Below, one piece after another: positions 1-31,032 of a DNA stretch of 31,032 bases. Position numbers and translations under genes: made by a program. The notes under the pieces were generated by a model. It worked only from the letters and a program-made list of their open reading frames with translations, was not told where the DNA came from and searched no databases. The stretch is from a virus: the IMG/VR virus record IMGVR_UViG_3300024294_000001, positions 1-31,032 of that record; one strand, given 5' to 3'. Each line of letters starts with the position of its first letter. The stretch's first letter is position 1.

Positions 1-127
1 CTATTAGAAATTCTATTGCTTTTGCAGTATCTTACAATATTTGGAAATATGGATTAGATAAAACAAACTTCTATTCTAATGTGATTAACGACAAAGAGTT
101 ATTAGACTTTGAGAGCAAGTTATTAGA
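1..127. repeat. Terminal direct repeat, left copy (circular overlap)
   Basis: Identical base for base to 30906-31032. An exact 127-base end overlap is what de Bruijn assemblers with a largest k of 127 leave on a circular contig, so I read it as an assembly overlap of a circular or circularly permuted molecule, not a biological terminal repeat. The coding frame of the tail-completion gene continues without a break across the join. Confidence 0.95.
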
Positions 128-170
128 GCAGTATCGTAAGTATATTATAGATATTATTAAGGTAGAATAA
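1..170 (+). CDS. Tail-completion-like protein (HK97 gp10-like), C-terminal part
   Basis: This is the 3' end of the gene that starts at 30497. Codons begin at position 3 in this copy and the stop is TAA at 168-170. Joined across the 127-base overlap the product is 192 residues. This part carries the helical, lysine-rich C terminus ending in IIDIIKVE. The function is discussed under the 5' part. Only the small-gene cassette promoter follows, 17 bases downstream, so the late transcript probably runs into it. Confidence 0.85.
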   Translation, partial: IRNSIAFAVSYNIWKYGLDKTNFYSNVINDKELLDFESKLLEQYRKYIIDIIKVE

Positions 171-186
171 AAAAAATAAAATAAAA

Positions 187-219
187 CTTGCATTGTATTA
201 ATATTTTATACTATATTTG
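187..219 (+). promoter_or_regulatory. Bacteroidetes-type promoter of small-gene cassette 1
   Basis: A -7 element TATATTTG lies at 212-219 (consensus TAnnTTTG) and a TTG at 188-190 lies 21 bases upstream, within the spacing reported for Flavobacterium. The start codon of the first cassette gene follows 20 bases later after an A-rich leader (ATAATAACAAACACA). Elements and spacing are read from sequence; activity is inferred. Confidence 0.65.
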
Positions 220-238
220 TATCATAATAACAAACACA

Positions 239-439
239 ATGACAAAACAAGAATTTACATACAGAACAAAAATCGAAAACAAAAAAGTAGTAATGGGTAA
301 GCTACCTTATAATGACATTTACTTTGTAGACATTTACCCAGATTATACTATTCAAACATCAACAAAGTATAAAACAAAAAAAGAAGCAATAAAAAGATTT
401 GACTTAATAAGAAATAGAGTTTCAGATAAAATAATTTAA
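239..439 (+). CDS. Small hypothetical protein, cassette 1 (66 aa)
   Basis: Unrecognised basic protein of 66 residues, beginning MTKQEFTYRTKIENKKVV. The reading frame is open further upstream to 188, but that would start inside the promoter. The ATG at 239, directly after the A-rich leader AATAACAAACACA, is the sensible start. No signal peptide or membrane segment; the C-terminal half (KTKKEAIKRFDLIRNR) looks helical and lysine/arginine-rich. It is the first of two small genes between a dedicated promoter (187-219) and a strong terminator (675-699), inserted between tail genes. It could be a host-takeover or anti-defence protein, by analogy with morons, but nothing in its sequence shows this. 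Confidence 0.7.
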   Translation: MTKQEFTYRTKIENKKVVMGKLPYNDIYFVDIYPDYTIQTSTKYKTKKEAIKRFDLIRNRVSDKII

Positions 440-461
440 AATAACTAAACACAATAACAAA

Positions 462-653
462 ATGAATTACAAAATTACTCACAACACAAAAGAAAGTTTC
501 GATTTAGCATTTATGAGAGTTTGCGAATTATTACGTAAAAAAAATTATAACAAAGCAAATCAAAATGAAATCAATGAATTAAATAAAATGATTTCAAGTG
601 ACTTTAATATAAAAAGATTGTCTGAAATGTATTCAGATTTAATTAAATATTAA
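462..653 (+). CDS. Small hypothetical protein, cassette 1 (63 aa)
   Basis: Unrecognised 63-residue protein, predicted mostly helical and Asn/Lys-rich (KKNYNKANQNEINELNKM). The start follows the leader AACTAAACACAATAACAAA, nearly the same as before the 7212 gene, which supports ATG 462. It lies 22 bases after the 66-aa gene and 21 bases before a terminator stem, so the two form a short operon. No motif suggests a function. Confidence 0.65.
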   Translation: MNYKITHNTKESFDLAFMRVCELLRKKNYNKANQNEINELNKMISSDFNIKRLSEMYSDLIKY

Positions 654-674
654 AACCAAAACCTAAAACAATTA

Positions 675-699
675 AACCTCCAGCAATGGGGGTTTTTTT
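675..699 (+). terminator. Rho-independent terminator of cassette 1
   Basis: Stem AACCTCC (675-681) pairs with GGGGGTT (688-694) around a six-base loop, with one T-G pair, followed by a run of seven T (693-699). It isolates the two-gene cassette from the tail genes that follow. The bases just upstream (655-671) resemble those before the terminator of the second cassette. Confidence 0.85.
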
Positions 700-720
700 A
701 TTACCCTAAATTTATGCGTC

Positions 721-741
721 TATTTTTGTATATATAAATAG
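721..741 (+). promoter_or_regulatory. Putative promoter and start-region motif before tail gene 742
   Basis: TATTTTTG at 721-728 fits TAnnTTTG and is followed by TATATATAAATAG directly before the ATG at 742. I see no matching -33 TTTG. The 18-base block 728-745 recurs at 7842-7859 with one mismatch, before the protease gene, which also follows a cassette terminator. Structural genes downstream of each terminator need restarted transcription, so a phage-specific late signal is plausible. Confidence 0.45.
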
Positions 742-7144: not shown

Positions 7145-7153
7145 AAAAAATAT

Positions 7154-7183: not shown

Positions 7184-7211
7184 TAGTACAATAAACAAAC
7201 ACAATAACAAA

Positions 7212-7541
7212 ATGAGCATTACAGAAAAAAATTATTTAGAAAAGTTTGAGGATTTTTTAGGTGAACGCGATGTCTTTCTACAAGTAGTATTAAATAGCAA
7301 AGAGGATTTTTTGGGTAATAGAACCCATAGCGAGGTTTTTGTATATCACCAGAACACGTTTTATGGTAGCTATACATCAGAATTTAAAAATTGTAGAGCT
7401 TTGTTTAGAGAGTTTAAAGAAAGAGTTAACATTGATTTAGATTTAAAAGGTGACATAGATTATAATTATGGGACAATTTATCCTACTATCTTTATTGAAC
7501 ACGAGGGAGAACTATTTGTAAAATTTAACCAATTATTTTAA
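7212..7541 (+). CDS. Hypothetical protein, cassette 2 (109 aa)
   Basis: Unrecognised 109-residue soluble acidic protein, rich in Phe, Tyr and Asp. It has its own consensus promoter and an A-rich leader, and is the first of two genes in a cassette placed between the tape measure and the protease-scaffold gene. With promoter, leader and terminator independent of the late operon it may be expressed early or constitutively, as phage morons are. There is no signal peptide, membrane segment or recognisable catalytic motif, so no function is proposed. Confidence 0.75.
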   Translation: MSITEKNYLEKFEDFLGERDVFLQVVLNSKEDFLGNRTHSEVFVYHQNTFYGSYTSEFKNCRALFREFKERVNIDLDLKGDIDYNYGTIYPTIFIEHEGELFVKFNQLF

Positions 7542-7548
7542 TATCAAA

Positions 7549-7719: not shown

Positions 7720-7744
7720 TAAATACCAAAAACCTAAAACAAAC

Positions 7745-9019: not shown

Positions 9020-9955
9020 ATGAGTTTTGATGTATCAAGTTTAACGAATTACGTTAACGAACAATCGACAGACCTAATCTCAAGACTATACTTTGAGAAA
9101 ACGTCCAGCGACTACTTCACGCTGCAATCTGGAGTAAAGAAAACTGATGCCTTGCATCTATTAGCAGTTAGTGCTTTCCCTCAAGATGGTTCATCTTGTG
9201 CAGTTAGTGCTTCTGGTGATGTAACTTTTAGCGACAGAAACCTTACAGTAGGTCAAATTACTTACTTCTCTGGGTTTTGTATGAAAGACCTTATCCCTAA
9301 GTACACTCAAATTTTATTGAGAGCTGGAAACGGAGAGACTGAAGAGATGGCTTTCGAAGCTGAGGTTGCTGAGTCTGTAATTAAAACAATTATGGAGCAT
9401 AACGAGGTTGCTGACTGGCAAGGAGATACTGCATCTGCAAATGTTTATGTCAATAGATACGATGGTCTTAACAAGATTATTGACGCTGCTGGTACTGCCG
9501 TAGATGGTAATACTTCAAGTGCTACTGCAATTACTGCTGGTGCATCTGGTAACGTAGACGGATTGATTACTGATATCTGTAATGCTCGACCAGCAAAAGT
9601 TAAGTCAGCTTCTAACCAAGTGTTGTTCGTAGGTCAAGATACTTTCGATAAGTATGTAGATACTTTGAACGCTAAAAACCTATACAATATTGATGCAACT
9701 GATTGGGCTAATTACGAGACTTCAATCGCTGGTAAAAATGTATCTTTAGTAGGTGTAGCTGGATTAGACGGAACAAATAGAATGTTCTTAGGAGTCAAAG
9801 AAAACTTCTTCTTAGGTTTTGATTTACAAAATGACGAGGAAGAGTTTGATTTCTGGTATGACAAGAAAGATGACAAGGTTTACTACCGAGTTAAATTTAA
9901 GAGAGGTTTACAAGTAGCATACCCAGACGAGATAGTAGAATTTACATTAGTATAA
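9020..9955 (+). CDS. Major capsid protein, HK97-fold (311 aa)
   Basis: A 311-residue acidic, beta-rich protein directly after the protease-scaffold gene. It has an N-terminal helix, an extended loop region (GDVTFSDRNLTVGQITYF), a central helical stretch (MAFEAEVAESVIKTIM) and a C-terminal strand region (DDKVYYRVKFKRGLQVAYPD), the arrangement seen in short HK97-fold capsid proteins of Bacteroidetes phages. The gene uses relatively GC-rich, regular codons, as highly expressed capsid genes often do. No long processed N-terminal delta domain is present, which fits a separate scaffold. Confidence 0.88.
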   Translation: MSFDVSSLTNYVNEQSTDLISRLYFEKTSSDYFTLQSGVKKTDALHLLAVSAFPQDGSSCAVSASGDVTFSDRNLTVGQITYFSGFCMKDLIPKYTQILLRAGNGETEEMAFEAEVAESVIKTIMEHNEVADWQGDTASANVYVNRYDGLNKIIDAAGTAVDGNTSSATAITAGASGNVDGLITDICNARPAKVKSASNQVLFVGQDTFDKYVDTLNAKNLYNIDATDWANYETSIAGKNVSLVGVAGLDGTNRMFLGVKENFFLGFDLQNDEEEFDFWYDKKDDKVYYRVKFKRGLQVAYPDEIVEFTLV

Positions 9956-10922: not shown

Positions 10923-13362
10923 GTTTCCAATAGTAACGGAGTTTGCTTCACAAGAAGTACCTAAGTTTTTAGAGAAAAAGAATAAGAACATAGTTTGGTT
11001 TGGTGCAGATAATATGTACCCTTACGAGCTAATAGACCTATATAATGATAGTAGCACTCATAACGCTATTGTAAATGGTAAAGTGGGTTATACAATAGGT
11101 AACGGATTAGAGGGCGATGACTTAGAGACTAAAAAATGGCTAAGCCAAGCCAATATAGACCAAGACTGGACTTCTTTAATGAAGAGTTTGTCATTAGATT
11201 ACGAGATATTTAACGGCTATGCTATTGAAGTAATCAAAACTAAAGTAGGCAATCAGTATCATCATATAGACTTTGCAAACATACGTTTAGGATTAGACGG
11301 CTCAATACAATATGCTGATGATTGGATTACTGACAAAGGCACAAAAAACTCTAAGCCAAGTATTCAGTATTTAGAGAGATATAATCCAAGAGATGCAGAA
11401 CAGAAAAGAGGTGTTATTTATCACGTTGATTATAGACCTAATCTTAAATACTATCCTTTGCCAGTTTATGTAGGTTCTTTAGCTGAGATTAAAACAGATG
11501 TACAGATAGGCGATTACTGGCTTAATGAGGTAGAGAATGGCTTTGTAGGTGGTACGTTAATACAACATAATAACGGAGTACCAGAAACCAAAGAAGAGGC
11601 AGAAACTTTTGAGAAATCATTTCAAGAGAAATTCGGTAAAGCTACTGGCACTAAAATAGTACACTTATTTAGCCCAGCTAAAGACAATAGTAGCGAGATT
11701 ACCAGCCTTAATGGTAATGACCTACACGAAAGATATGTAGAAATGTCCAAAAGGGTTAAAGAATCTATCTTTATTGGGCATAGAGTTACTAATCCTATCT
11801 TGTTTGGTGTAAAAGAAGAGGGACAATTAGGAGCAAGAAACGAGCTTGACTTAGCGTATGAGATATTTACTAATACTTATATAGCCGAAAGACAAAATAC
11901 GCTGCTTAGAACTATAAAGAAATTAGCATTTTACGAGATACAAAGAACAGATATTGAGATTATACCTCTTAAACCGATAGACGCTATTGACTTAACTTCT
12001 GATATTATCTTAGCTAACCTTGATAGAGAGGAAATTAGAGAGCTTATTACTGACCAAACTGGGTTAGAACTAAAGGAAGCTATTGAAGAGCCAGTAGGTA
12101 TGTCTGAGGATTGTGGGTGTAATAAGTTTGATGACAACCCTTGTTGGGATGGTTACGAAATGATAGGTATGAAAGTATTAAATGGAGTTTTAGTACCTAA
12201 TTGCGTACCAGAAAAGATGTCTAAAGACCTTGCTAAAATTGTAAAGGACGGCAAACCTTTATTTGATACAATAGAGGAGGCTGAGAGAGTAGCAAAAGAA
12301 ATAGGTTGCGAGGGATATCACGAACACGATATAGACGGAAAGACTTGGTATATGCCTTGCTCATCTCATACAGAGATTAATGACAAGAATTTAGAGGGGT
12401 TTAACCATATAACAAAATTTGATACCTATAACGATTACCCAAAAGCAGCAAGTAGAAACGCACAAACTGCTTTAAATTGGGCTGAGAAAAATGGTTGGGG
12501 AAGTTGTGGTACACCAGTAGGTAAAAAGAGAGCTAATCAACTCGCAAAAGGAGATAATATAAGCCGAGATACGATAGCTCGAATGGCAGCTTTTGAGCGT
12601 CACAGAAAGAACTCAAAGAAAAAACTTGGAGACGGATGTGGTAGATTGATGTGGTTAGCTTGGGGAGGCGATGCTGGTGTAGATTGGGCTAAAAGAAAGC
12701 TAAAGCAGATAGATGCTGGTAAGATGTGTTCTTGTAGTAGCTTTTCTAAAGACGAAAATATAAGCCACTTATTTAAAAACATAGGGGTATTAGAGAAAGA
12801 TTACGAGGTAATAGATAGTTTCAATATTAATTTTGATACAGATGGTAGCCCTATTGAGTTTGCTACTGAGGAACAAAAAACAACGCAAGAAGTATTAAAC
12901 GCTTTAAAGAACAATCCTTTAATGACATCAGTTGAGTTAGCTGCTTTGTTAGGATTAGAATTTGAGGAGCTTATAGGGGCTATAAATGTGCTTAAAACTG
13001 CTGAATTAATTACCATAGAGGGTAGTGCTTTAGGTTTGACAGATGTAGGAGCAAGAATAGCAGATGCAATAGTATTGCCAGAGAGAGAAGTAAAGTATAG
13101 ATATGAGCTTAGACCAGATGCACCAGCTTTATCAGAGGGGGGAAAGTCAAGAGATTTTTGTAAAGATATGATGGGAATGGGGAGATTATGGTCAAAGCAA
13201 GAAATACAGACTGTGTTAGATAATGGTATGAAGTCAAGTGGCATAGCAGATGTTACTAATGTTTGGTTAGCTCGTGGAGGTTGGTATAGACGACCAGATA
13301 CGACTACCTCAGTACCTTATTGCCGACATATATGGAAACAAGTAATAGTTAGAAAAAGATGA
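10915..13362 (+). CDS. Portal protein with long multi-domain C-terminal extension (815 aa)
   Basis: Residues about 1-400 are a portal protein: an N-terminal clip region (NIVWFGADNMYPYELI), a core ending in helices where FIGHRVTNPILFGV and GARNELDLAYEIF are typical of Bacteroidetes phage portals. Portals form the dodecameric DNA channel at one capsid vertex. After residue 400 come a Cys-rich linker (DCGCNKFDDNPCWDGYEMIG), a GCEGYHEH/YMPCSSH segment (about 455-490), a helical domain seen in other phage head proteins (about 501-605; CGTPVG, LMWLAWGGDA), a winged-helix-like domain (about 655-720), and a C-terminal domain (about 725-815) with RYELRPDAP, GGWYRRP and YCRHIWKQ, resembling ends of Mu-F-like head morphogenesis proteins. 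Usual portals are 400-550 residues, so it probably merges portal and minor head functions. Confidence 0.85.
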   Translation: MNKFPIVTEFASQEVPKFLEKKNKNIVWFGADNMYPYELIDLYNDSSTHNAIVNGKVGYTIGNGLEGDDLETKKWLSQANIDQDWTSLMKSLSLDYEIFNGYAIEVIKTKVGNQYHHIDFANIRLGLDGSIQYADDWITDKGTKNSKPSIQYLERYNPRDAEQKRGVIYHVDYRPNLKYYPLPVYVGSLAEIKTDVQIGDYWLNEVENGFVGGTLIQHNNGVPETKEEAETFEKSFQEKFGKATGTKIVHLFSPAKDNSSEITSLNGNDLHERYVEMSKRVKESIFIGHRVTNPILFGVKEEGQLGARNELDLAYEIFTNTYIAERQNTLLRTIKKLAFYEIQRTDIEIIPLKPIDAIDLTSDIILANLDREEIRELITDQTGLELKEAIEEPVGMSEDCGCNKFDDNPCWDGYEMIGMKVLNGVLVPNCVPEKMSKDLAKIVKDGKPLFDTIEEAERVAKEIGCEGYHEHDIDGKTWYMPCSSHTEINDKNLEGFNHITKFDTYNDYPKAASRNAQTALNWAEKNGWGSCGTPVGKKRANQLAKGDNISRDTIARMAAFERHRKNSKKKLGDGCGRLMWLAWGGDAGVDWAKRKLKQIDAGKMCSCSSFSKDENISHLFKNIGVLEKDYEVIDSFNINFDTDGSPIEFATEEQKTTQEVLNALKNNPLMTSVELAALLGLEFEELIGAINVLKTAELITIEGSALGLTDVGARIADAIVLPEREVKYRYELRPDAPALSEGGKSRDFCKDMMGMGRLWSKQEIQTVLDNGMKSSGIADVTNVWLARGGWYRRPDTTTSVPYCRHIWKQVIVRKR

Positions 13363-13886: not shown

Positions 13887-14357
13887 ATGTCGAAAAGTTT
13901 GACCATAAAAAACATAAGGACAATAATGGAGGGGATAAAGGCAGAACATCCTCAGATAAACACAATCCTAAAGGGTAATATCTGGGACGTAGATTTAACA
14001 AAAGATGTTACTGGAAGCTACCTTATATACGATGTTGTCAATATTTCTCCTAATGGGTTTAACGGAATAGACTACTCGCTTGATATTTTCTTATGCGATA
14101 ATGTTACAGAGATAAATACAGAGTCAAACGAGGTAAGTGTACAAAATGAGTGTTGCCTAATCGCTCTGGATATAATGAGCATATTTGAGAACTACAATAA
14201 GGCTTCATATGCCGACAAAGATATTGCTTTAGTACTGAATAAGAACTGGAGCATACAACCATTTACCGAAAGATTTGATAGTTTATATAGTGGGGCAGCG
14301 ATTAGTATGTCGCTTAGCTCGGCTTGGGGTTATGCAAGATGTAAAGTACCAGTATGA
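13887..14357 (+). CDS. Putative neck / tail-terminator protein (156 aa)
   Basis: A 156-residue alpha/beta protein. An N-terminal helix (LTIKNIRTIMEGIKAEHP) is followed by alternating strands (YLIYDVVNISP, YSLDIFLCDNV) and a C-terminal strand ending GYARCKVPV. This outline matches small neck or tail-terminator proteins, which cap the tail tube where it meets the head. Position after the connector agrees. The ATG lies after AGAGAAAT, and its stop overlaps the next ATG (ATGA). No sequence motif proves the role. Confidence 0.5.
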   Translation: MSKSLTIKNIRTIMEGIKAEHPQINTILKGNIWDVDLTKDVTGSYLIYDVVNISPNGFNGIDYSLDIFLCDNVTEINTESNEVSVQNECCLIALDIMSIFENYNKASYADKDIALVLNKNWSIQPFTERFDSLYSGAAISMSLSSAWGYARCKVPV

Positions 14358-16117
14358 GCATATTAAGTAAAGCAAGTTTAGTACAAATACCAAGTGGCTA
14401 TGGAGAGGATAAACTCTATTCAGAAGTACCAAATACTGCTGCTGGAGATTTTACGTTTACAAGGGCTTCGAGTGGCACAAGGGTAAACGCTGATGGATAT
14501 ATAGAAGATGTCCCTTGGAACTTGTTAAACTATTCAGAAGAATTAACTGCTGCAAATGGATGGCGACAAACTTTAGGCTTAACAACACAATTAACAACAG
14601 AAACGAATCCTATCGGAGTAGATTCTTGCTATAAAACAATAGCAGATACAAATACAAATTCACATTATACATATTCAACGAATGCCATAGGTAATTTATC
14701 TTACTTTGGTGGGTTTTGTGTGAGTTTTTACGCAAAGCCAAACGGATATAATTGGGTAAGGTATTTTAACAATAACATTCAATTCGGTGTTGATATTAAT
14801 ATTGTTACTGGCGAAATACAAAACAAAAGAGAGGATTCAATAGACACTATTTTAGTCGAAGATGCTCCAAACGGATGGACAAAGGTTAGTCTGCAATTTG
14901 ATAGGTTAATTTCATATTCATACACAATGTTTAAGCCAATGCCGTCAGCACTTGGAACAAATACATTTGCTGGAGATGGTGTTAGTGGTATGTTTTTATG
15001 GGGTATTCAAATATCAAAAGGGCTTAATTTTAAGTCATACATAAAAAGAACTGATGGGTTTGATGTTCCAAGATTAGATTATAGTGGAGGAGCAAGTTGC
15101 CCAACTTTATTGCTTGAACCTCAGAGGACGAACAAATCTAATAATTCAGAAGATTGGACTGCAACTGGATATATAAAAAATAATTGTACGGCTATTGCAA
15201 ACCAAACAACAAGCCCAGACAACAATCAAACTGCTGACCAATTAGATTTTGGAAGTGGTAGTGGGTTTTTCTATGAGGTTGTAACGACGATAACGGCTGC
15301 ATCAACTTATTCAGTATTTGTCAAATACATAGATTATCAATATATTCAAATCATTGGAACTGGAGATGTAGACCATTATGCAAACTTTGACATTCAAAAT
15401 GGTATTGTTGGCAATACTGGAAGTCAATCGACTGCAAGTATCGAGGACTATGGCAACGGTTGGTATAGGTGTATTATTAATTACAATAGTGGAACTTTTG
15501 CTGGTGGTGCGAGACTTTATAAAACAACTTCATTAACTGCTGGGTGGGCTAGTGGTGGTGGAGATGCTGGGAGTTTTTATTTTTGGGGTAACCAAATGGA
15601 AGTGGGAACATTTCATACCTCCTACATACCAACAACTGGAACGAGTGTTACGAGGGTGGGAGATTTATGTGTTGCAACATCTGTGACAGATTTAATTGGT
15701 CAGACTGAAGGAGTTGTTAATTTAAAATTTCAAAAAGAATATACAGATACATATAGAATATTCACTCTTTACGGAACAAATACGAGCAACAGACTTGGAA
15801 TATTCACAATAAATAACAACTTGTATGTTTTTGTTGTAAGTGGAGGAGTGCTACAATTTCAAGTAGTAGTTAAGGCGTCAATGGGTAATGGGACTTTTAA
15901 TATAGCAGTTCAGTACAAACAAAATGATTACAAAATATATGTTAATGGTGTAAGCGAATACACTAACACAAGTGCAAACGTTCCAGTTTCTTTGATAGAT
16001 GTTTTATTCGCACAACTTCCAAATGGTGCATTATCGTTTAATCATAAAATTCATTACCTTTACTTATTTAAGGAAACATTAACAGACACAGAACTTGAAG
16101 AATTAACAACGATATAA
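14354..16117 (+). CDS. Putative receptor-binding / carbohydrate-binding tail protein (587 aa)
   Basis: Three beta-sandwich-like parts can be read. Two related modules (about residues 45-245 and 255-435) each end in a matching pattern: NGW..., then FLWGIQ or FYFWGNQ, then SYIKRT or SYIPTT, then VPRLDY or VTRVGDL. The C terminus (about 440-587) looks like a LamG/concanavalin-like domain (YKIYVNGVSEYTN, IHYLYLFKETLTDTELEEL). Such proteins bind glycans and are placed on tail fibres or head fibres. Neighbours are the neck gene before and a small gene, holin and endolysin after, the usual place for host-recognition genes. Ligand unknown. This and the next gene are where host-range variation would be expected. 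Confidence 0.65.
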   Translation: MSILSKASLVQIPSGYGEDKLYSEVPNTAAGDFTFTRASSGTRVNADGYIEDVPWNLLNYSEELTAANGWRQTLGLTTQLTTETNPIGVDSCYKTIADTNTNSHYTYSTNAIGNLSYFGGFCVSFYAKPNGYNWVRYFNNNIQFGVDINIVTGEIQNKREDSIDTILVEDAPNGWTKVSLQFDRLISYSYTMFKPMPSALGTNTFAGDGVSGMFLWGIQISKGLNFKSYIKRTDGFDVPRLDYSGGASCPTLLLEPQRTNKSNNSEDWTATGYIKNNCTAIANQTTSPDNNQTADQLDFGSGSGFFYEVVTTITAASTYSVFVKYIDYQYIQIIGTGDVDHYANFDIQNGIVGNTGSQSTASIEDYGNGWYRCIINYNSGTFAGGARLYKTTSLTAGWASGGGDAGSFYFWGNQMEVGTFHTSYIPTTGTSVTRVGDLCVATSVTDLIGQTEGVVNLKFQKEYTDTYRIFTLYGTNTSNRLGIFTINNNLYVFVVSGGVLQFQVVVKASMGNGTFNIAVQYKQNDYKIYVNGVSEYTNTSANVPVSLIDVLFAQLPNGALSFNHKIHYLYLFKETLTDTELEELTTI

Positions 16118-21242: not shown

Positions 21243-21247
21243 TTCTT

Positions 21248-22334: not shown

Positions 22335-22341
22335 ACTTTTT

Positions 22342-24330: not shown

Positions 24331-24592
24331 CGATAGTAAAATAATACAAGAAGCAAGGCAAGTAATATCCAGCATAGAATTAAAGCTAATGAAGCAACAA
24401 CCAAATCAGAATAAACAAAATAGCGTAGATAAGCTCAATAGTCTTATGCACTATACTTGTTATTTAGAGAAGCAGAATAACGAATTTTATGATAAGTTTA
24501 CAAATCAATTACAGAGGATTAAAATGCTTGAAAATCACATAGATAATCTGCAAAACAAAATTAATGTTGATAAAAATATTAGGGAATTATGA
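24317..24592 (+). CDS. Hypothetical coiled-coil protein (91 aa)
   Basis: Overlaps the end of the helicase gene by 14 bases and the next gene by 4. Composition is Gln/Asn/Lys-rich, and residues about 45-88 (LEKQNNEFYDKFTNQLQRIK, then MLENHIDNLQNKI) show leucine/isoleucine heptads, so a dimeric coiled coil is likely. No catalytic motif. Preceded by the A-rich leader AATAACACACAACACAA. Position suggests a replication accessory. Confidence 0.6.
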   Translation: MTPFNDSKIIQEARQVISSIELKLMKQQPNQNKQNSVDKLNSLMHYTCYLEKQNNEFYDKFTNQLQRIKMLENHIDNLQNKINVDKNIREL

Positions 24593-24897
24593 ACAATTTG
24601 TATAGACTTGCATACAATATGAACCACTACTATACGTCAGACGATGAACGAGTAGCTAAAAGCGTCATAGATAGGAGGATACACGAAGCAAAGGCAAACG
24701 CTCTAAGCGAACAATTTTGGGAGTACGGATATAACTTTTGTAGCGACTGCTTAAAATCTAATGGAGTACGTTTAGATTGCTCACACAACATTTCGGTAGA
24801 TGAAGCTCAAAAAACAAGGCGAACAGAACTGGCTTGGGATGTAAATAATATTAAAGTAAGATGCAGAGAATGCCATCAAAAACACGATAATTTATGA
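24589..24897 (+). CDS. HNH-like zinc-finger protein, possible endonuclease (102 aa)
   Basis: Two Cys pairs, CSDC (51-54) and CREC (92-95), frame DCSHNIS (His 66) and end in CREC-HQKHD (His 96, 99), with VNNI between (Asn 86/87). This is the zinc-binding beta-beta-alpha layout of HNH endonucleases, with His 66, Asn 86/87 and His 96/99 as the H-N-H residues. The N-terminal 45 residues are helical. It could be a homing-type or packaging-linked nuclease, or only a nucleic-acid-binding zinc protein. It lies directly before the Mom-like gene with a 4-base overlap. Confidence 0.6.
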   Translation: MNNLYRLAYNMNHYYTSDDERVAKSVIDRRIHEAKANALSEQFWEYGYNFCSDCLKSNGVRLDCSHNISVDEAQKTRRTELAWDVNNIKVRCRECHQKHDNL

Positions 24898-25583
24898 GCA
24901 TCAAAAATAAATATAAGGTTAAAATAATAGACAAGTCAGATACTAAAGAGTGGTTAATTAAAAAACACTATTTAAAAAGGATGACAAGTTTTACGTTTGC
25001 TTTTGGTTTATATTTTAATTTTGAGTTAGTCGGAGTTTGTACTTTTGGTAATGCTATTCCTTTACAAATGAAAAAGTCTATTTGTGGTCAAAAATATATG
25101 GGATTGGTTTATGAGTTAAATAGACTAATAACTAATGATAATTTAGATAAAAATGCAGAGTCTTTTTTTGTATCTTCTTGTTTAAAGCTATTGCCAAAAC
25201 CCACCATAGTTGTTTCTTATGCCGATAAATCATTCGGACATAATGGTTATATATACCAAGCAACTAATTTTTATTTTACTGGCGAGAGTCACACACAAAA
25301 AGATTGGAAACTAAAAGGCAGAGAACATATACATAGCAGAACTTTGATGGATGAATTTGCTTATCAAGAAAATAGAATTGAAAAATTAAAACAAAAATAT
25401 GGGGATGATTTATATCAAGTAGAAAGACCTCCAAAAAACAGATATGTTTATTTCTGTGGGTCAAAAAAACAAAAAAAAGAATTATTCAATAATAAATTAT
25501 TTAATACAAAGCCATATCCAAAGGGAGATAATGTTTATTATGATACAAGTCATAAAACATCATATCAACGAAAACTAATATGA
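24894..25583 (+). CDS. Mom-like DNA adenine modification protein, GNAT fold (229 aa)
   Basis: Residues 108-127, VSYADKSFGHNGYIYQATNF, followed by YFTG, are the signature of the phage Mu Mom family, as are FELVGVCTFG near 43-52 and YELNRLI near 73-79. Length is close to Mu Mom (about 230). Mom uses a GNAT-like fold to turn adenine in DNA into a carbamoylmethyl-type base that blocks many restriction enzymes. The C-terminal 60 residues are basic and Tyr-rich (KNRYVYFCGSKKQKKELF). It sits in an operon with an HNH-like and an Nmad1-like gene. In Mu, Mom expression needs Dam methylation at GATC sites; here I saw no GATC at all, so control must differ. Confidence 0.8.
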   Translation: MSIKNKYKVKIIDKSDTKEWLIKKHYLKRMTSFTFAFGLYFNFELVGVCTFGNAIPLQMKKSICGQKYMGLVYELNRLITNDNLDKNAESFFVSSCLKLLPKPTIVVSYADKSFGHNGYIYQATNFYFTGESHTQKDWKLKGREHIHSRTLMDEFAYQENRIEKLKQKYGDDLYQVERPPKNRYVYFCGSKKQKKELFNNKLFNTKPYPKGDNVYYDTSHKTSYQRKLI

Positions 25584-25765
25584 AAGGATTATACCAAGTA
25601 ACTGCAATGAGAGCAAAGAAGATAATTAGCGAAGAGGTCTATGGTAATATAGCTGAAAAAAATACGCTATTTAATCGCTTAATGACAAGGCATAAAATAC
25701 CACATAGCAGAAGGCACGAATGGAAACTACAAGAAGTAAAATTAAATAAAGAAATAAATGACTAA
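25580..25765 (+). CDS. Small basic hypothetical protein (61 aa)
   Basis: Sixty-one residues, strongly basic (many Lys, Arg, His), overlapping the Mom-like gene by 4 bases and the next by 8. The C-terminal part (LMTRHKIPHSRRHEWKLQEV) could bind nucleic acid. In Mu a small zinc protein (Com) activates mom translation and precedes it; this one follows the gene and has no cysteines, so it is not Com. Confidence 0.6.
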   Translation: MKGLYQVTAMRAKKIISEEVYGNIAEKNTLFNRLMTRHKIPHSRRHEWKLQEVKLNKEIND

Positions 25766-26060
25766 AAAAGAACAGATGGCACATTTCGGTTATATGACTG
25801 GAGAGATGAGAAAGACATTATTTAGCAAGGGCGATGACTATGCAAATAAGGATAGATTATCTAACTTTAAATTAGCTGGAACTATTGCTGGTGGAGATGC
25901 CAGAACAAACTGCCTAAACTTAATCGCTACCAAAGTTGCAAGATTAGGAGTATTGATTAACTCAGACCAAGAGCCTAACAACGAGAGTATAGAGGATAGC
26001 ATTTTGGACTTAGCTAATTATTCCGTACTTTTGTCAATGATAATAAACGAAAATAAATAA
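25758..26060 (+). CDS. Nmad1/DUF1599-like protein (100 aa)
   Basis: Pattern MRKTLFSKGDDYANKDRLSN with LAGTIAGGDARTNCLNLIAT, then KVARLGVLI and EDSILDLANYSVLL, fits the DUF1599 family, which has been named nucleotide modification associated domain 1 because it occurs with DNA-base-modifying genes in phages. The acidic and basic residues around KGDDY and EDSILDLANY resemble small helical nucleotide hydrolases. It is two genes after the Mom-like protein, which agrees with a nucleotide or base modification role. The biochemical activity is unproven; family membership is fairly secure. Confidence 0.72.
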   Translation: MTKKEQMAHFGYMTGEMRKTLFSKGDDYANKDRLSNFKLAGTIAGGDARTNCLNLIATKVARLGVLINSDQEPNNESIEDSILDLANYSVLLSMIINENK

Positions 26061-26061
26061 A

Positions 26062-26316
26062 ATGGAAAAACAAGAAAAAACTTTCGCAGACGGATTTATG
26101 TTTAAAATGAATCCTAATTCACCAGAATGGGTTATTGGTGGTCTTAGCTTAAAAGCTGATGACGCTATTGCCTTTATTCAAAAACACCAAGACAAAGGAT
26201 GGGTCAATCTTAAAATTAATATTGGAAAGAGTGGAAAGCCATACGTTGAGCTTGATACTTGGAAGCCAGAACCAAAGAAGGAAATGGCTACCTCAGAGGA
26301 AAGCCTACCCTTTTGA
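26062..26316 (+). CDS. Small protein with SSB-like acidic C-terminal tail (84 aa)
   Basis: A compact beta-rich body (FADGFMFKMNPNSPEWVIGG, GWVNLKINIGKSGKPYVELD) is followed by a flexible linker (KPEPKKEMATS) and ends EESLPF. Bacterial SSB proteins end in an acidic stretch plus Pro-Phe that docks recombination and replication partners. The size, replication-region location and tail make a single-stranded DNA-binding protein a reasonable guess; no OB-fold is proven. Begins two bases after the Nmad1-like gene stop. The TGA overlaps the TTG start of the next gene. Confidence 0.6.
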   Translation: MEKQEKTFADGFMFKMNPNSPEWVIGGLSLKADDAIAFIQKHQDKGWVNLKINIGKSGKPYVELDTWKPEPKKEMATSEESLPF

Positions 26317-27665
26317 AATTAGAACAGATATATTTTGATGATAGCATACGAGATTATGCTCTTAAACTTACTGGCAATAAGCTGGAAGCAGAGGAGCTAA
26401 TCTCTACTGCGTTTGAAATATGTTTGACTAAGCCTCCTATTGAAAACCTTAAAGGCTATTTTGCAATGGTTATGCGTAACCAATATCTAAAGAAATGCAA
26501 GAAGCAAGACCCTTATTTTGACAACGAAAACTCAGAGCATCCAGAAGTTGAGCAAGTGCTTGATAGGATGAATCATTACTACGCTAATATTCTAAGAGCT
26601 ATTTCTAACGGAGAAACCTTAACCCAAATACACAAGGGTGCGTCTATTGGTTATAGAACGCTTAGAGATGACTATACGAAAGCTAAAAAACAATTTAAGA
26701 TAATGTACGAGAATAAGATTAAGATAGCAGTTATTATAAGAGGTATTAACGGAGTTAGTTACCATAGATTATTAATGCCATTTGCTAAGATGCAGAGAGA
26801 TTATGGTATTGAGGTAGTAGTATTGCTGAATAAGGATGATGAGTTTTTTAATAACTTAGAAGGAATTACTCACGTTGTATACAATAGGAATATATCTGGG
26901 CTATTGCAGCCAGAGGAAACATTCCTTAAGCTAAGAGCAAAAGGAATTAAAGTTATCTGCGATATAGATGATTACTGGGTATTACCTAAAGGACACCCAA
27001 TGCGATACTATTACCAAAAAAGCAACCTCGATAAATGTATTGTTAAGAATCTAAAGTTAGCTGACCAGATATGGACTACAACTTCTATACTGGCTGATAA
27101 GGTAAGACCATACAATAAAAATATAGTAGTAATTAAGAACGCTTTAGACCCAACAGAAAAACAATATGCTTACGATGATTTAAGTCTTAATTTTGATACG
27201 TTCTTTTATTCTGGTGGTACTACTCATTTAAAAGATTTAAAGCTATTAGGGAACGCTTTTGACGATAGTAAGCTATTAATTAAAGCTCCAAGATTACCAA
27301 AGCGAATGAAGGCTATAAAAAAACAGATAAGCGATATACAGAGTTATGCTGATGACTATAAACATTGTGGTATTTGCGTTATACCTCTGCAAGATAATCT
27401 ATTTAATAACTGCAAATCTGAGTTAAAAATGATTGAAGCTGGACACTTTGCAAAGCCAGTAATGGTATCGGCAGTAGAGCCTTATACTTTGCTCTCAACA
27501 AATAAAAATAGCTTAAAGGTATATAATAATGAATGGTCTAATGCAATAAAGAAGATAAAAGGTAACCACACAATGCAAGTAGATTTAGGCTTAAAGCTAA
27601 AAGAGGACATAACAATTAAACACGATATAACAAAAGAGAACGAAAAACGCTTACAATCATTATGA
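26313..27665 (+). CDS. Sigma-factor-like domain fused to GT-B glycosyltransferase (450 aa)
   Basis: I start at TTG 26313, which overlaps the previous TGA as TTGA; the ATG at 26259 in the same frame would add 18 residues that only shadow the upstream gene. Residues about 10-65 look like ECF sigma region 2 (RDYALKLTGNKLEAEELIST, NLKGYFAMVMRNQYLKKCKK). Residues 85-128 look like a region-4 helix-turn-helix (ISNGETLTQIHKGASIGYRT). From about 131 a GT4-like glycosyltransferase begins (KIAVIIRGINGVSYHRLL; VICDIDDYWVLPKGHPM; NNCKSELKMIEAGHFAKPV). An in-frame ATG at 26703 could give the enzyme alone. Phage enzymes of this type may glycosylate DNA, virion proteins or host surface; substrate unknown. 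Confidence 0.72.
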   Translation: MKLEQIYFDDSIRDYALKLTGNKLEAEELISTAFEICLTKPPIENLKGYFAMVMRNQYLKKCKKQDPYFDNENSEHPEVEQVLDRMNHYYANILRAISNGETLTQIHKGASIGYRTLRDDYTKAKKQFKIMYENKIKIAVIIRGINGVSYHRLLMPFAKMQRDYGIEVVVLLNKDDEFFNNLEGITHVVYNRNISGLLQPEETFLKLRAKGIKVICDIDDYWVLPKGHPMRYYYQKSNLDKCIVKNLKLADQIWTTTSILADKVRPYNKNIVVIKNALDPTEKQYAYDDLSLNFDTFFYSGGTTHLKDLKLLGNAFDDSKLLIKAPRLPKRMKAIKKQISDIQSYADDYKHCGICVIPLQDNLFNNCKSELKMIEAGHFAKPVMVSAVEPYTLLSTNKNSLKVYNNEWSNAIKKIKGNHTMQVDLGLKLKEDITIKHDITKENEKRLQSL

Positions 27666-27847
27666 GTGAGGAATTAGAAACAAGAATACGAGCTATCTAT
27701 AATATGAAAGGTGGCAGACTTGACCCAAGTTTATATAATGAATTTATTGAGCTATGCCAAGAGAACTTTAGATATAGACCAGATGTAAGTTGTGGTAAGT
27801 GCATCTATAAACACGTTGTTAAATTATATGATAAATACTTTAAATGA
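27662..27847 (+). CDS. Small hypothetical protein (61 aa)
   Basis: Overlaps both neighbours by 4 bases. Mostly helical with a CGKCIYKH motif near residues 44-51. Related 60-residue proteins with this C-x-x-C and the ending HVVKLYDKYF are, to my recollection, frequent just before terminase or ParB-like genes in flavobacterial phages. Function unknown; too few ligands for a complete zinc site in one chain. Confidence 0.62.
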   Translation: MSEELETRIRAIYNMKGGRLDPSLYNEFIELCQENFRYRPDVSCGKCIYKHVVKLYDKYFK

Positions 27848-28281
27848 AAGTAACAGATATTAAAAGCAATCCTAATAACCCTCGTATAATAAAAGACGAG
27901 AAATTTGAGAAGTTAAAAAAGTCTATTAAGGAGTTTCCTAAAATGATGGCTTTACGACCTATGATAATTAACCAAGACAATATAGTCTTAGGAGGTAATA
28001 TGCGTTTAAAGGCATTAAAAGAATTAGGATATACTGAGCTGCCAGATGAGTGGATTAAAAGGGCTGAGGACTTAACAGATGAAGAGGCAAGAAGATTTAT
28101 TATAGCAGATAACGTAGGCTTTGGAGAACACGACTGGGATATATTGGCTAATGAGTGGGATGTAAATGAATTATCAGATTGGGGTTTAGAGGGATTTCCG
28201 TTTAATGCAGATGAATCAGAAGAGCCAATTAAAGAAGATAGGCAAATAGAAATATGTGATAAATGTGGTAGAGAAATATGA
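27844..28281 (+). CDS. ParB/Srx-like domain protein (145 aa)
   Basis: Residues 1 to about 115 match the ParB N-terminal (ParB/sulfiredoxin) fold as found in phages: ITDIKSNPNNPR-like start (VTDIKSNPNNPRIIKDEKF), LRPMIINQDNIVLGGNMRLK with the GGNxR motif, then FIIADNVGFGEHDWDILANE. The ParB-type pocket binds CTP or other nucleotides and some phage members act as nucleases. In many phages this domain is joined to a DNA methyltransferase; here it ends with a short CDKCGREI tail, so the enzyme part is absent. It immediately precedes terS (4-base overlap), suggesting a link to packaging or host-DNA control. Confidence 0.72.
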   Translation: MKVTDIKSNPNNPRIIKDEKFEKLKKSIKEFPKMMALRPMIINQDNIVLGGNMRLKALKELGYTELPDEWIKRAEDLTDEEARRFIIADNVGFGEHDWDILANEWDVNELSDWGLEGFPFNADESEEPIKEDRQIEICDKCGREI

Positions 28282-28658
28282 GTACAAAAAATGACATACA
28301 AAAGGCTGCAATGATAGAAGCTTTAGAGAAGTCTTTAGGGATAGTTACCTCTGCTTGTAAGTCAGTTGGAATAAGTAGGAATACACATTACACTTGGCTA
28401 AAGCAAGACGATATATATAAAGAAGCAGTAGAGGATATAGAAAATATAGCTTTAGACTTTGCAGAAAGCCAACTGCATAAGCAGATTAAGGATGGCAATA
28501 CTACTGGAACTATATTTTACCTAAAGACCAAAGGTAAGAAACGAGGGTATATAGAACGTACTGAGGTGCAGCAAGAGACAACCTATAAGAGCTTAGACAT
28601 AAACATTATAGATACTGGAGTGCCATTAGCGTCTAATGAGAAAGATATAGTTGATTAG
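28278..28658 (+). CDS. terS: Terminase small subunit (126 aa)
   Basis: N-terminal helix-turn-helix (AAMIEALEKSLGIVTSACKS, VGISRNTHYTWLKQDD) that should bind the packaging site, then helices (DIENIALDFAESQLHKQIKD) for oligomer formation and a TIFYLKTKGKKRGYIER motif seen in many small terminases. Its stop overlaps the TTG start of the large subunit by 8 bases. Together they start DNA packaging. Confidence 0.85.
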   Translation: MSTKNDIQKAAMIEALEKSLGIVTSACKSVGISRNTHYTWLKQDDIYKEAVEDIENIALDFAESQLHKQIKDGNTTGTIFYLKTKGKKRGYIERTEVQQETTYKSLDINIIDTGVPLASNEKDIVD

Positions 28659-29808
28659 TACCTCTACTTTATATCGCCAAAATTATACCTCTGCTGCTGA
28701 TGTGGTAGTTAATCAAGGTGGTACATCCTCTGGTAAGACCTATGCTATTTTGCAAGTATTATTTAGTAAGGCTATAAACGAGGTTTGCACTATAACGATA
28801 GTAGGTCAAGATATACCTAATTTAAAGGTAGGAGCTTTGAGGGATGCTATTGACATACATAATGGCGATGAGGCTATAAAACAACAAGTAACATTTTACA
28901 ATAGGAGTGATAGAGTGTTTAGTTTCCTTAATGGCTCTATAATGGAGTTTAATTCCTACGATAATGACCAAGATGCAAAGAGTGGTAAGCGTGACTATCT
29001 ATTCGTAAATGAAGCAAACGGAATACCTTACAACATTTATGAGCAATTAAGCCTTAGAACTCGTAAGCAAGTCTATATAGATTACAACCCAGATACGAGC
29101 TTTTGGGTACACGATAAAGTAATACCAATACCCAGCACAGAATTAATAATATCAGACCATAGGCATAACCCTTTCTTAAGCGAGAAGATAAGAGAGAAGA
29201 TAGAGGCTCTTAAAAGCAAAGATTTAGACCTATGGAAAGTATATGCCAGAGGTATTACTGGGCGAATAGAGGGGCTTATATTTAAGAAGTGGTATGTATT
29301 GAATGAGGGGTTTGAAGATAAAAAGATAATAGGGTACGGAATAGATTTTGGTTTTAGTAATGACCCTACAACGCTGATTGAGGTGCGTATGCAAGACGGA
29401 GAATTATACGTTAAGGAGTTGATATATGAAACTGGCTTAACTAATCAAGATATAAGCAGTAGAATGGATGCTTTAAACGTAAGCAGAGGAGCTTTAATAG
29501 TAGCAGATAGTGCCGAGCCAAAGAGTATAGAGGAGCTAAGGCGATTAAGGTGGACAATAGATGGAGTAAAAAAGGGCAAAGATAGTGTTATGTTTGGCAT
29601 TAATCTTTTGAAAGGTTATGCAATTAACGTACATTCGTCAAGTAAGAATTTAATAAAAGAGCTTGAACAATATAAATGGAAAGTAAATAAAAACGGAGAT
29701 AGCCTTAACGTACCTATTGATGAATATAACCACGCTATTGACGCTCTAAGATATTTAATAATGCACAAATTTAGTAAGAAAGGATATGGACAGTATACAG
29801 TTTTATGA
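28651..29808 (+). CDS. terL: Terminase large subunit (385 aa)
   Basis: ATPase: Walker A GGTSSGKT (residues 23-30), Walker-B-like strand DYLFVNEANGI, and LRTRKQVYIDYNPD as the coupling region. Nuclease: GYGIDFGFSNDPTTLIEV, LIVADSAEPKSIEELR and NHAIDALRY, giving the three acidic metal ligands of the RNase-H-like domain. It translocates DNA into the prohead and cuts it. TTG 28651 is used as start because the upstream overlap and the distance to the Walker A are normal. At 385 residues it is compact but has both domains. Pac or cos type cannot be told from sequence here. Confidence 0.93.
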   Translation: MISTSTLYRQNYTSAADVVVNQGGTSSGKTYAILQVLFSKAINEVCTITIVGQDIPNLKVGALRDAIDIHNGDEAIKQQVTFYNRSDRVFSFLNGSIMEFNSYDNDQDAKSGKRDYLFVNEANGIPYNIYEQLSLRTRKQVYIDYNPDTSFWVHDKVIPIPSTELIISDHRHNPFLSEKIREKIEALKSKDLDLWKVYARGITGRIEGLIFKKWYVLNEGFEDKKIIGYGIDFGFSNDPTTLIEVRMQDGELYVKELIYETGLTNQDISSRMDALNVSRGALIVADSAEPKSIEELRRLRWTIDGVKKGKDSVMFGINLLKGYAINVHSSSKNLIKELEQYKWKVNKNGDSLNVPIDEYNHAIDALRYLIMHKFSKKGYGQYTVL

Positions 29809-30382
29809 TATTACAGTAGGGCAATATCAGCTACTTAACAATATAGACAAAGACCTAACGGAAATTGAACAGAATATTTACGCAGTAGCAGCAATTAAGA
29901 ATATAACCTATGACGAAGCCAGTAAGATTAAGCTATCTGAGTTTAATGATATGGTTAAAGATATAGGCAAAATCAACCTAAATAAGCTGGAGCAAAAAAA
30001 GGTTAATAATAAAATCTTTTTAAATGGCGAGGAATACCACGTTGAGCATAGACCAGATAGGCTAACAAGTGGTCAGCTATTAGACATACTTAATATAAGG
30101 GCAAACCATCAAGGCGAGAGCATACAAGTAATGGACTTGCTTATAGCTGCATTAAGTAGGCAAAAAGGCAAGAAGTATAGCGAGGATAATTTAACGCTTA
30201 CAGAGAGAGCTAAATATTGCCGAGATGTAAAAGTAACAGATGTATGGAATGTCTTTGTTTTTTTTTGGAATCTCTGGAACGGCTACTTAAAAAATTCAGA
30301 GGATTATTTACAAAAGTGGACGGAGAACTCAGTCAAGATGGCGAGGGAGATTTTGGACAACGATGGGGACTCTTCAGCGTGA
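29786..30382 (+). CDS. Tail assembly chaperone, short form (G-like, 198 aa)
   Basis: Mostly helical acidic protein (ITVGQYQLLNNIDKDLTEIE; LTSGQLLDILNIRAN) with the usual length of a G-type tail assembly chaperone, which coats the tape measure during tail assembly. It ends at 30382 in the zero frame. At 30259-30265 a T7 slip site in the zero frame permits a -1 shift into an open frame that adds about 80 residues (see next entries). It overlaps terL by 23 bases. The 30217 open frame has no sensible start of its own. Confidence 0.65.
   Translation: MDSIQFYDITVGQYQLLNNIDKDLTEIEQNIYAVAAIKNITYDEASKIKLSEFNDMVKDIGKINLNKLEQKKVNNKIFLNGEEYHVEHRPDRLTSGQLLDILNIRANHQGESIQVMDLLIAALSRQKGKKYSEDNLTLTERAKYCRDVKVTDVWNVFVFFWNLWNGYLKNSEDYLQKWTENSVKMAREILDNDGDSSA
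30259..30265 (+). promoter_or_regulatory. Predicted -1 ribosomal frameshift site (T TTT TTT)
   Basis: Within a run of nine T (30258-30266) the zero-frame reading is GTT TTT TTT TGG, so the heptamer T TTT TTT is in the correct phase for a -1 slip. After the slip the next codon is TTG at 30265-30267. The resulting frame stays open to 30507. The downstream 20-60 bases are GC-richer but I see no obvious pseudoknot. Confidence 0.7.
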
Positions 30383-30507
30383 TAAAAGCTATGGCAGATT
30401 TACACAACATAAGTATTAACGAGGCAACTAAATTAGGAGCTATTGAGTTTCTGAACTGGTGGGCTTATATGGTAGAGAAACAAGATTACGAGAAAAATGC
30501 AAGATAA
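30265..30507 (+). CDS. Tail assembly chaperone, frameshift extension (T part of GT-like)
   Basis: Reached by -1 slippage: zero-frame residues 1-160 are followed by 80 residues beginning LESLERLLKKFRGLF and ending WWAYMVEKQDYEKNAR, giving a 240-residue fusion. The extension is helical with aromatic residues (INEATKLGAIEFLNWWAYM), the composition of the T domain of lambda gpGT, which recruits the tube protein. The only upstream ATG in this frame (30217) would give a Cys-rich non-sense-like N terminus that overlaps the coding part of G, so independent initiation is unlikely. Its end overlaps the tail-completion gene by 11 bases. Confidence 0.65.
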   Translation: MESLERLLKKFRGLFTKVDGELSQDGEGDFGQRWGLFSVIKAMADLHNISINEATKLGAIEFLNWWAYMVEKQDYEKNAR

Positions 30508-31032
30508 GAGATTAATAGGAATGCTGAACCAATATTGGCAGAAAATAGTTGATGATTTAGTAAAGTCCTTATATGATGTTGGTAGGGTAGCAAGTGGAGC
30601 TACTGCTCAAAGTATAGCTGATGGGAATACAAACCCAATAACAATAACTTCTAACGGATTTAGAATACAAATAGCAATGCCAACTTATTACCAGTTTATT
30701 GATGAGGGTGTAAGTGGAGCTGAAAAAAATAAAGGTATAAGCCGTTTTAGCTACAAAAGTCCATTCTCTTGGAAAAATGCTCCTCCTATATCAGCCGTTA
30801 GAAAGTTTATGTTAAATAGAGGTATTAGTAAATTTTCAGATATAAAAGCTAAAAGAAGTTACACTCGAAAAAATACAAAGTCTGGTAAACGTAGAGATGC
30901 AGAGGCTATTAGAAATTCTATTGCTTTTGCAGTATCTTACAATATTTGGAAATATGGATTAGATAAAACAAACTTCTATTCTAATGTGATTAACGACAAA
31001 GAGTTATTAGACTTTGAGAGCAAGTTATTAGA
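30497..31032 (+). CDS. Tail-completion-like protein (HK97 gp10-like), 5' part, runs off the end
   Basis: Starts ATG 30497 within the end of the chaperone extension. Beginning MQDKRLIGMLNQYWQKIVDD, it has an N-terminal helix, then GATAQSIADGNTNPITITSN and FRIQIAMPTYYQFIDEGV, a pattern I recognise in HK97 gp10/neck-type tail completion proteins. A basic segment (AKRSYTRKNTKSGKRRDAEA) follows and the remaining C terminus is at 1-170. The full product is 192 residues. It probably joins the tail tube to the neck. The window ends inside the gene because the circle was opened there, not because it is broken. Confidence 0.72.
   Translation, partial: MQDKRLIGMLNQYWQKIVDDLVKSLYDVGRVASGATAQSIADGNTNPITITSNGFRIQIAMPTYYQFIDEGVSGAEKNKGISRFSYKSPFSWKNAPPISAVRKFMLNRGISKFSDIKAKRSYTRKNTKSGKRRDAEAIRNSIAFAVSYNIWKYGLDKTNFYSNVINDKELLDFESKLL
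30906..31032. repeat. Terminal direct repeat, right copy (circular overlap)
   Basis: Exact copy of 1-127. Removing one copy gives a circle of 30,905 bp in which the tail-completion gene is intact and every gene on the plus strand from 22736 to 17803 is in one direction. Confidence 0.95.

Follow-up and report, generated by a model that had tools for sequence, protein, structure and literature searches.

IMG/VR virus record IMGVR_UViG_3300024294_000001 (31,032 bases, analysed over its whole length and hereafter called the window) raises the question of how a phage genome comes to lack many short DNA words completely while keeping others. A sequence-only reading of the window had found by eye no GATC, CATG, GGCC, CCGG or GCGC, and had proposed restriction avoidance acting at synonymous sites. 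Our analysis indicates that many host restriction enzymes acting on double-stranded DNA have very probably purged the genome through purifying selection of long standing.

Short words missing from the window

A machine count over positions 1..31032 returned zero copies of each of the five palindromes. The random expectations offered earlier (about 90-100 for GATC and CATG, about 25 for the GC-only sites) match those from base composition, which are 94.7 for GATC and CATG and 24.6 for each of GGCC, CCGG and GCGC; a second-order Markov formula (trimers over dimers) gives 63, 57, 24, 4.8 and 19 for GATC, CATG, GGCC, CCGG and GCGC, respectively. The eye count had understated the extent of the loss: it caught five avoided words where there are at least a dozen, and none of the asymmetric ones. 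CTAG occurs once against a Markov expectation of 98, its sole copy (15549..15552) lying within an open reading frame (ORF; 14354-16117) that is very divergent among relatives. CAGG and CCTG are absent (expected 61 and 48), as are GCGG/CCGC, CGGG/CCCG, ACAGC/GCTGT, GCNNGC, GGNCC and CCNGG, and the palindromes AGCT (188 copies), TGCA (128), GTAC (74), ACGT (54) and TCGA (25) are retained.

Expectations that preserve the proteins and the codon usage were obtained by shuffling synonymous codons among the 45 coding sequences (CDSs; 29,859 nt, 500 shuffles). The null means are 59.4 for GATC, 40.0 for CATG, 15.5 for GGCC, 9.9 for CCGG and 22.2 for GCGC, all observed at zero, and 87 for CTAG, 93 for CAGG, 40 for GCGG, 22 for CGGG, 42 for ACAGC and 29 for GCNNGC; for none of these 11 words was any of the 500 shuffles as low as the window. 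The sequence-only reading had named AGCT, GTAC, TCGA and ACGT as present, and so they are, with AGCT, TGCA, GTAC and ACGT inside the codon-null range, but TCGA stands at about half its expectation (25 against 53.7, 0/500 shuffles as low). ACNGT (14 against 50) and GANTC (37 against 61) are likewise depleted, not eliminated. This null ignores codon-pair context, against which zero-count words with a high expectation are safe and weak words are not. Neither of the two outcomes named in advance as telling against avoidance, more than a handful of sites in a machine count or a codon null near zero, occurred.

The choice among synonymous codons is visible at individual residues. All 45 Asp codons before C are GAC and all 24 His codons before G are CAC, as had been read; that His is CAT elsewhere is just a tendency (85 CAT and 46 CAC of 131). 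The examples of His CAC at 12319-12327 and 30038-30040 are correct, whereas the one placed at 24886-24888 was one codon off, CAC being at 24883-24885.

In the sections drawn on here, a survey of restriction-site avoidance in phages (Rusinov et al., 2018; PMC6286503) defines elimination as an observed/expected ratio below 0.1 with an expectation above 15. With expectations from our Markov formula, which is not the survey's own calculation, GATC, CATG, CTAG, GGCC, GCGC and CAGG/CCTG are eliminated; CCGG falls short through its Markov expectation of 4.8, yet stands at 0 against 9.9 by the codon null. A greedy conditional test, in which synonymous codons were swapped with already found words forbidden, returned 16 words in turn: CAGG, CTAG, GATC, ACAGC, CCGC, CATG, GCNNGC and GCGC, followed by CACTG, CCCG, CCGG, CTATAG, ACCGT, GGAAAA, GGCC and GNGCNC. 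CTATAG, ACCGT, GGAAAA and GNGCNC are uncertain as avoided words, and an alternative ranking by depletion, not absence, also chose mild words such as GTGA and AATTG.

The eliminated 4-mers are rich in palindromes, comprising six of the 15 scorable 4-bp palindromes and three of the 120 other 4-mers (p 4.6e-5). The bias extends to longer words: with 11 words banned in the null, the 38 scorable 6-bp palindromes that are still allowed total 289 copies against 448 expected (0.65), compared with a ratio of 1.006 for other 6-mers. Dimeric restriction enzymes predict such a palindrome bias.

The asymmetric words are missing in both mRNA-sense orientations. Counts are 0 against 64 expected for CAGG and 0 against 30 for CCTG; for the other pairs they are 0 against 24 and 17 (ACAGC, GCTGT), 12 and 28 (CCGC, GCGG), and 6 and 17 (CCCG, CGGG). 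This two-sided loss shows that the pressure acts on DNA, and it counts against an RNA-level explanation in which a host endoribonuclease strips asymmetric words from messages. Such an enzyme would account for the asymmetry of CAGG, ACAGC, CCGC and CCCG, and the consulted sections of the survey (PMC6286503) record little avoidance beyond orthodox Type II sites; with both orientations gone for all four words, we consider it extremely unlikely.

Avoided sets across the family

Relatives were collected from IMG/VR with two queries, the large terminase subunit (28651..29808, + strand), which also served as the basis of the tree, and a virion structural protein that is probably the major capsid protein (9020..9955, + strand; phrog_1623, 1.5e-8), each yielding at least 80 loci. 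Forty-three contigs (7.8-33 kb, window included) were hand-picked from loci L005-L084 and L104-L183, and those contigs that were inspected share a conserved gene order. Across 12 words and 43 contigs, 108 word-contig cells had expectations below 10 and were left unscored; of the 408 scorable cells, 222 are at or below 0.15 of the codon-null expectation, 129 at or above 0.5, and 57 between, including GATC in L025 (18 against 39) and CCGC in L006 (21 against 51). The control palindromes AGCT, GTAC, TGCA and ACGT exceed 0.5 of expectation in all 172 cells. Which words are missing depends on lineage: among the 19 contigs of 15 kb or more there are 17 distinct score patterns, some of which differ merely in unscored or intermediate words, and even CATG is near expectation in three of the 43 contigs (L152, L158 and L160).

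A terminase protein tree of 58 rows, comprising the window and 57 of 80 loci (the 23 dropped being mostly short contigs or partial terminase matches), places these states on a phylogeny in which 6 of 46 inner branches have support of at least 95. CATG is avoided in 57 rows and partial in one. Rows scored avoided and present number 31 and 18 for CTAG, 31 and 22 for CAGG, and 27 and 21 for GCNNGC; for CCGG they number 25 and none, with 33 unscored or partial. Each of ten words changes state one to five times on the tree, while AGCT, GTAC and TTAA are present in 58/58 rows and TGCA in 57/58. The window is the sole row with all 12 words avoided; L005 and L007 are uncontradicted, with some words too rare to score, and when whole contigs are considered L012 and L110 fall short of the full set only because CCGG is too rare in them to be scored.

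These comparisons also bear on the idea of a sequencing, library or assembly artefact, such as a restriction-based library, which could be entertained for a sequence known as an IMG/VR virus record. Loci of one metagenome (3300025098) differ, L032 carrying 74 copies of GGCC and L023 none, and a single avoided set is common to L030, L031, L032, L034 and L069, which come from five metagenomes. Differing sets within one metagenome and the same set across five are not what a library artefact would leave, and long intact ORFs span the record, making this explanation vanishingly improbable. As a separate observation, GGCC exceeds the codon null about threefold in the L030/L031/L032/L034/L069 group (79 against 27 in L032, 77 against 27 in L069), and the excess in L032 and L069 persists when the other avoided words are forbidden.

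A more serious concern is that part of the word list reflects a general context bias, with only the palindromes, CAGG and a few others marking enzymes. Mild depletions such as GTGA (50 against 112) and TCGA (23 against 52 in the contig comparison) are unlikely to be enzyme targets, the greedy test passes weaker words down to GGAAAA (2 against 21), and the word-list benchmark described below returns AAAAA in T7. Against this, the leading words are at 0 or 1 with expectations of about 15-96, and most come close to expectation, or exceed it, in at least one relative, the best case for GCGC being 11 against 21. We regard this partial explanation as unlikely, with some room left for it.

The asymmetric words vary among relatives in a graded manner around one core. 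CAGG, at zero in the window, has one copy in L009. The longer word DCAGG is absent in both orientations from L025 (expected 39 and 18) and L080 (expected 51 and 18) and is reduced to 7 against about 67 in L026, with CCAGG/CCTGG kept in all three (7 against 4 in L025, 2 against 4 in L080 and 11 against 5 in L026, the L080 numbers being very small). Elsewhere it is RCAGG that is depleted in both orientations (2 against about 56 in L046, 6 against about 43 in L057 and 4 against about 44 in L166), with TCAGG above expectation in the same loci (53 against 37, 52 against 37 and 41 against 27). To our knowledge, no enzyme has exactly the specificity CAGG, DCAGG or RCAGG; CCGC we take to be a Type II site. 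We tentatively suggest, with less than even confidence, that the asymmetric words are a single class, varying from lineage to lineage around a common core, and are targets of undescribed single-site restriction enzymes or other DNA-reading defences of marine Bacteroidota whose specificity shifts base by base; the avoided set might then serve as a passport of the hosts' defences, swapped piecewise by recombination. Outside the family, the Flavobacterium-phage-like contig L195 has no CCAG/CTGG (0 against 49) and no GATC (0 against 34), so phages beyond the window's family can avoid an asymmetric 4-bp word as well.

Site changes and the case for restriction

Codon alignments with 16 relatives, limited to genes at least 75% identical, compare the window with its family site by site. 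Where an aligned relative has a copy of any of 14 avoided words, the window never keeps it, an outcome that is in part built in, so few copies being present in the window at all; against L032, for instance, GGCC is kept at 0/47 sites and CTAG at 0/52. Control palindromes are kept in proportion to identity, as in the comparison with L006 (93.1% identical over 22.6 kb), where AGCT is kept at 123/164 sites, GTAC at 43/54 and TGCA at 63/77. Most differences leave the protein unchanged: the surrounding amino acids match those of L030-type relatives at 100/133 GGCC, 105/153 CTAG, 81/95 CAGG, 95/113 CCGC and 108/122 CCCG sites. The four L030-type relatives share ancestry, which makes their sites non-independent, and the differences are unpolarised. 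The differences span several positions, with both transitions and transversions.

This spectrum is informative about mutational bias, under which methylated cytosines deaminate and words decay without selection. Most avoided words hold C or G, relatives carry modification genes, and C>T or G>A differences from L030-type relatives are common for CAGG (67/94 changes) and GGCC (80/141). For CCCG, however, just 10 of 113 changes are C>T or G>A and 103 are transversions, against a background of 71% for synonymous C/G changes, and the window has CCAG at 102 of the 122 CCCG sites of those relatives. CAGG sites of L046 and L057 show an A-to-T difference, with CTGG in the window at 32/43, and the commonest counterpart of GATC is GACC, which adds a C (12/41). 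Exact zeros are also not expected from mutational bias, and deamination appears very improbable as the cause.

Self-sparing, in which a nuclease of the phage cuts host DNA at the words that its own genome lacks, is scarcely credible. A family-conserved HNH endonuclease-like gene is indeed present (24589..24897, + strand; phrog_144, 1.3e-4, with no match in a Pfam profile search), but its product is 78-98% identical in relatives where it is seen and their avoided sets differ, and a single 102-aa HNH protein would be unlikely to read a dozen words. On the evidence given above we reject deamination, library artefact, RNA-level cleavage and phage-nuclease self-protection.

Selection at synonymous sites for restriction avoidance, as first proposed from the letters, is supported by the codon-shuffled null, the palindrome enrichment, the lineage-dependent sets of relatives and the Mom match described below. 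Under this explanation, each unmodified site would carry a chance of cutting on entry, and because of that risk site-destroying mutations, mostly neutral for the protein, would be favoured until no site is left, with newly arising sites weeded out. The targets would be mostly 4-bp palindromes of the classical Type II kind, with a minority of asymmetric words (CAGG, CCGC, CCCG and ACAGC). Since relatives have different missing sets, the avoided set probably tracks the range of hosts that each lineage infects, recording the defences survived, and it might shift through a change of host or through modules gained by recombination. Residual sites are distributed in line with the latter: genes at least 85% identical to the window make up 23,424 nt of L006 and hold 9 of its 49 sites, the remaining ORFs (8,349 nt) holding 40, and in L009 the corresponding figures are 7 in 24,393 nt and 10 in 7,032 nt. 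This concentration indicates that divergent modules, such as the LamG-like ORFs and one tail ORF, carry a different word set, which we interpret either as a sign that they came from donors infecting other hosts or as incomplete purging.

Restriction avoidance itself is of a known kind; the window is an unusual variant in how many words it has lost, in the asymmetry of some of them and in the way the sets differ by lineage. In the consulted parts of the survey (PMC6286503), elimination affects 7.1% of orthodox Type II site-phage pairs and less than 0.5% for other types, and is commoner in non-temperate phages. The window resembles these cases in the complete loss of short Type II enzyme sites, and departs from them, as far as those parts go, in losing about a dozen words at once with asymmetric ones included, in the differing sets of its relatives and in the modification genes of its family. 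GATC is eliminated in T7 and in a 40-kb stretch of Staphylococcus phage K, as in the window, and GGCC and CGCG in phi29. Six 4-bp palindromes are eliminated in the window, one to six in the family members compared and none to four in ten non-family sequences (one or two each in T7, phi29 and phage K, three in FpV9 and four in the T7-like contig L253). On a benchmark of 17 kb of CDS, 13 words are found in the window, 3-10 in 15 other family members and 0-8 in 12 non-family sequences: 5 each in T7, KHP30 and phi29, 8 in FpV9, 3 in phage K, 0 in a Chitinophaga locus, 8, 1 and 0 in Flavobacterium-phage-like contigs and 3, 3 and 2 in T7-like contigs. This benchmark is small, and its word lists take in low-complexity words such as the AAAAA of T7. 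Earlier reports of multi-word avoided sets in related phages were not recognised in a brief search of mostly open literature, which is weak evidence of novelty.

The hosts are probably Bacteroidota with many restriction systems. A Shine-Dalgarno-like word precedes just one of 34 starts examined, which would fit a Bacteroidota host, and among phage records the terminase comes closest to a faecal contig (49%) and, among the matches listed, to Flavobacterium psychrophilum phages (38%); the capsid protein had no match in the phage collection searched. A scan of genome contigs for hosts yielded one relative, the Chitinophaga locus, with a terminase identity of 57%, and at E <= 1e-60 the terminase has matches in 16 of 395 Bacteroidia genomes; in seven the identity is 56-58%, too distant to name a host. 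Those seven loci (L184 and L280-L285; six of just 4.1 kb, prophage status not shown) have no eliminated 4-mer except GTCA in L284. Hosts dense in restriction-modification (R-M) systems do exist among Flavobacterium, since F. psychrophilum strains are reported, in the passages cited, to hold about 10 methyltransferases each on average, with strain-specific variation (PMC11837570). The same passages give CGCG for one strain and CCGG and CCNGG for most, and the consulted text on a sea-ice Polaribacter metagenome-assembled genome lists five R-M operons, and reports CCWGG and CCGG from de novo detection and GGCC from homology (PMC12570018). The motif list for Flavobacteriaceae called for by the sequence-only reading, drawn from portions of these two sources only, gives a divided answer for the cultured phage FpV9, in which CGCG is missing (0 against 33) and CCGG and CCNGG are kept. 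FpV9 resembles the window in the near or complete loss of CGCG, CTAG and CATG (none, none and one copy in FpV9), and is unlike it in keeping CCGG, GGCC and GCGC; its terminase is 38% identical to that of the window.

Several points weigh against restriction as the cause. No avoided word has been matched to an actual enzyme, and FpV9 does not avoid CCGG (137 against 71) or CCNGG (33 against 30). Mild depletions (TCGA, GTGA and ACNGT) have no clear enzyme reading, and sequence context may account for the weak entries with which the greedy list ends. L253 eliminates 4 of 16 palindromes, so that the window's six are high, not isolated. In the sections of the survey used here (PMC6286503), avoidance is almost confined to orthodox Type II sites and rare or absent for Types I, IIG and III, which makes CAGG, ACAGC and CCCG, for which we can name no classical enzyme, fit restriction less well. 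The same sections report that five hydroxymethylating coliphages avoid merely 2.4% of sites, a figure that makes modification genes and strong avoidance in one family unexpected.

Modification genes and other features of the genome

Beside site removal, the family may possess a second layer of anti-restriction in two variable slots that hold DNA-modification genes: Mom in the window, and a methyltransferase, a TET/JBP-like dioxygenase or a TET-associated glycosyltransferase in relatives. The Mom-like gene noticed beside the site loss (24894..25583, + strand) was borne out by profile matches to PF25680 (8.1e-40) and phrog_1384 (7.7e-56), the former full-length (137.1 bits with a cut-off of 27.1; profile 2-202 of 202, residues 7-210 of 229). 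Members of the Mom family modify adenine; from sequence, the window encodes a Mom-family protein with a predicted adenine-modifying activity. Compared with phage Mu Mom, the likeness is the PF25680 protein, and the differences are that the window's gene sits in a slot holding other genes in relatives and that many sites are missing too.

Slot 1, between the HNH gene and ORF 25580, contains Mom in the window; L009 and L026 have a PAPS-reductase-like gene there, and L025 and, at the contig end, L034 show a methyltransferase match. Slot 2 runs from a ParB-like gene (27844..28281, + strand) to the small terminase subunit (28278..28658, + strand; named by position only), and contains a TET-associated glycosyltransferase in L012 and L014, a TET/JBP-like gene in L015, Mom in L025, and in L009 a TET/JBP-like gene with a glycosyltransferase match of 24.2, under the Pfam cut-off of 27.5. 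L006 has no slot-1 gene and a methyltransferase match with two stops. The 145-aa ParB-like product of the window is an N-terminal domain alone (phrog_498, 9.3e-27, profile 38-168 of 633; Pfam ParB_N 24.5 bits, below the cut-off of 26.3), an ORF length shared with L030, L032, L034 and L069; the ParB-like ORFs of 391-421 aa in L006, L046, L057, L065 and L075, records with N6_N4 methyltransferase matches, are apparently ParB-methyltransferase fusions.

Family searches of the window and 29 relatives, several of the records being fragments, found Mom in 3/30 records, N6_N4 methyltransferase matches over the cut-off in 7/30 and no C5-methyltransferase (PF00145) in these 30 partly fragmentary records. 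As the TET-like genes lack a PF00145 companion there, the host might supply their 5-methylcytosine substrate. A by-eye comparison of relatives, with small numbers, found no rule tying the modification gene in a slot to the words kept. Further TET/JBP-like dioxygenase genes occur in family phages at L087:14625-15419 and L091:3176-4054, and PAPS-reductase-like genes in or near modification slots at L100:820-1986, L087:10334-11083 and L093:12888-13637; a role of the latter in sulphur-based DNA modification is speculation.

Among its other features, the record begins and ends with identical 127-base direct repeats (1..127 and 30906..31032, + strand), and on this basis looks complete, circular or terminally redundant. 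Profile matches identify recombination and replication genes. The C-terminal two thirds (residues 160-466) of ORF 26259-27665 match a phage glycosyltransferase family (phrog_7162, 2.6e-45), and the sole CGCG counted in the record is at 7266..7269.

With about a dozen words lost, several of them asymmetric, and sets that differ among close lineages, the family amounts to a natural experiment. Host restriction repertoires could be read from uncultivated phage sequence, undescribed specificities such as CAGG, DCAGG, RCAGG and ACAGC could be predicted, and host shifts and recombination could be followed through the avoided sets; the family could also show to what extent, in a single group of phages, modifying DNA can take the place of removing sites and vice versa.

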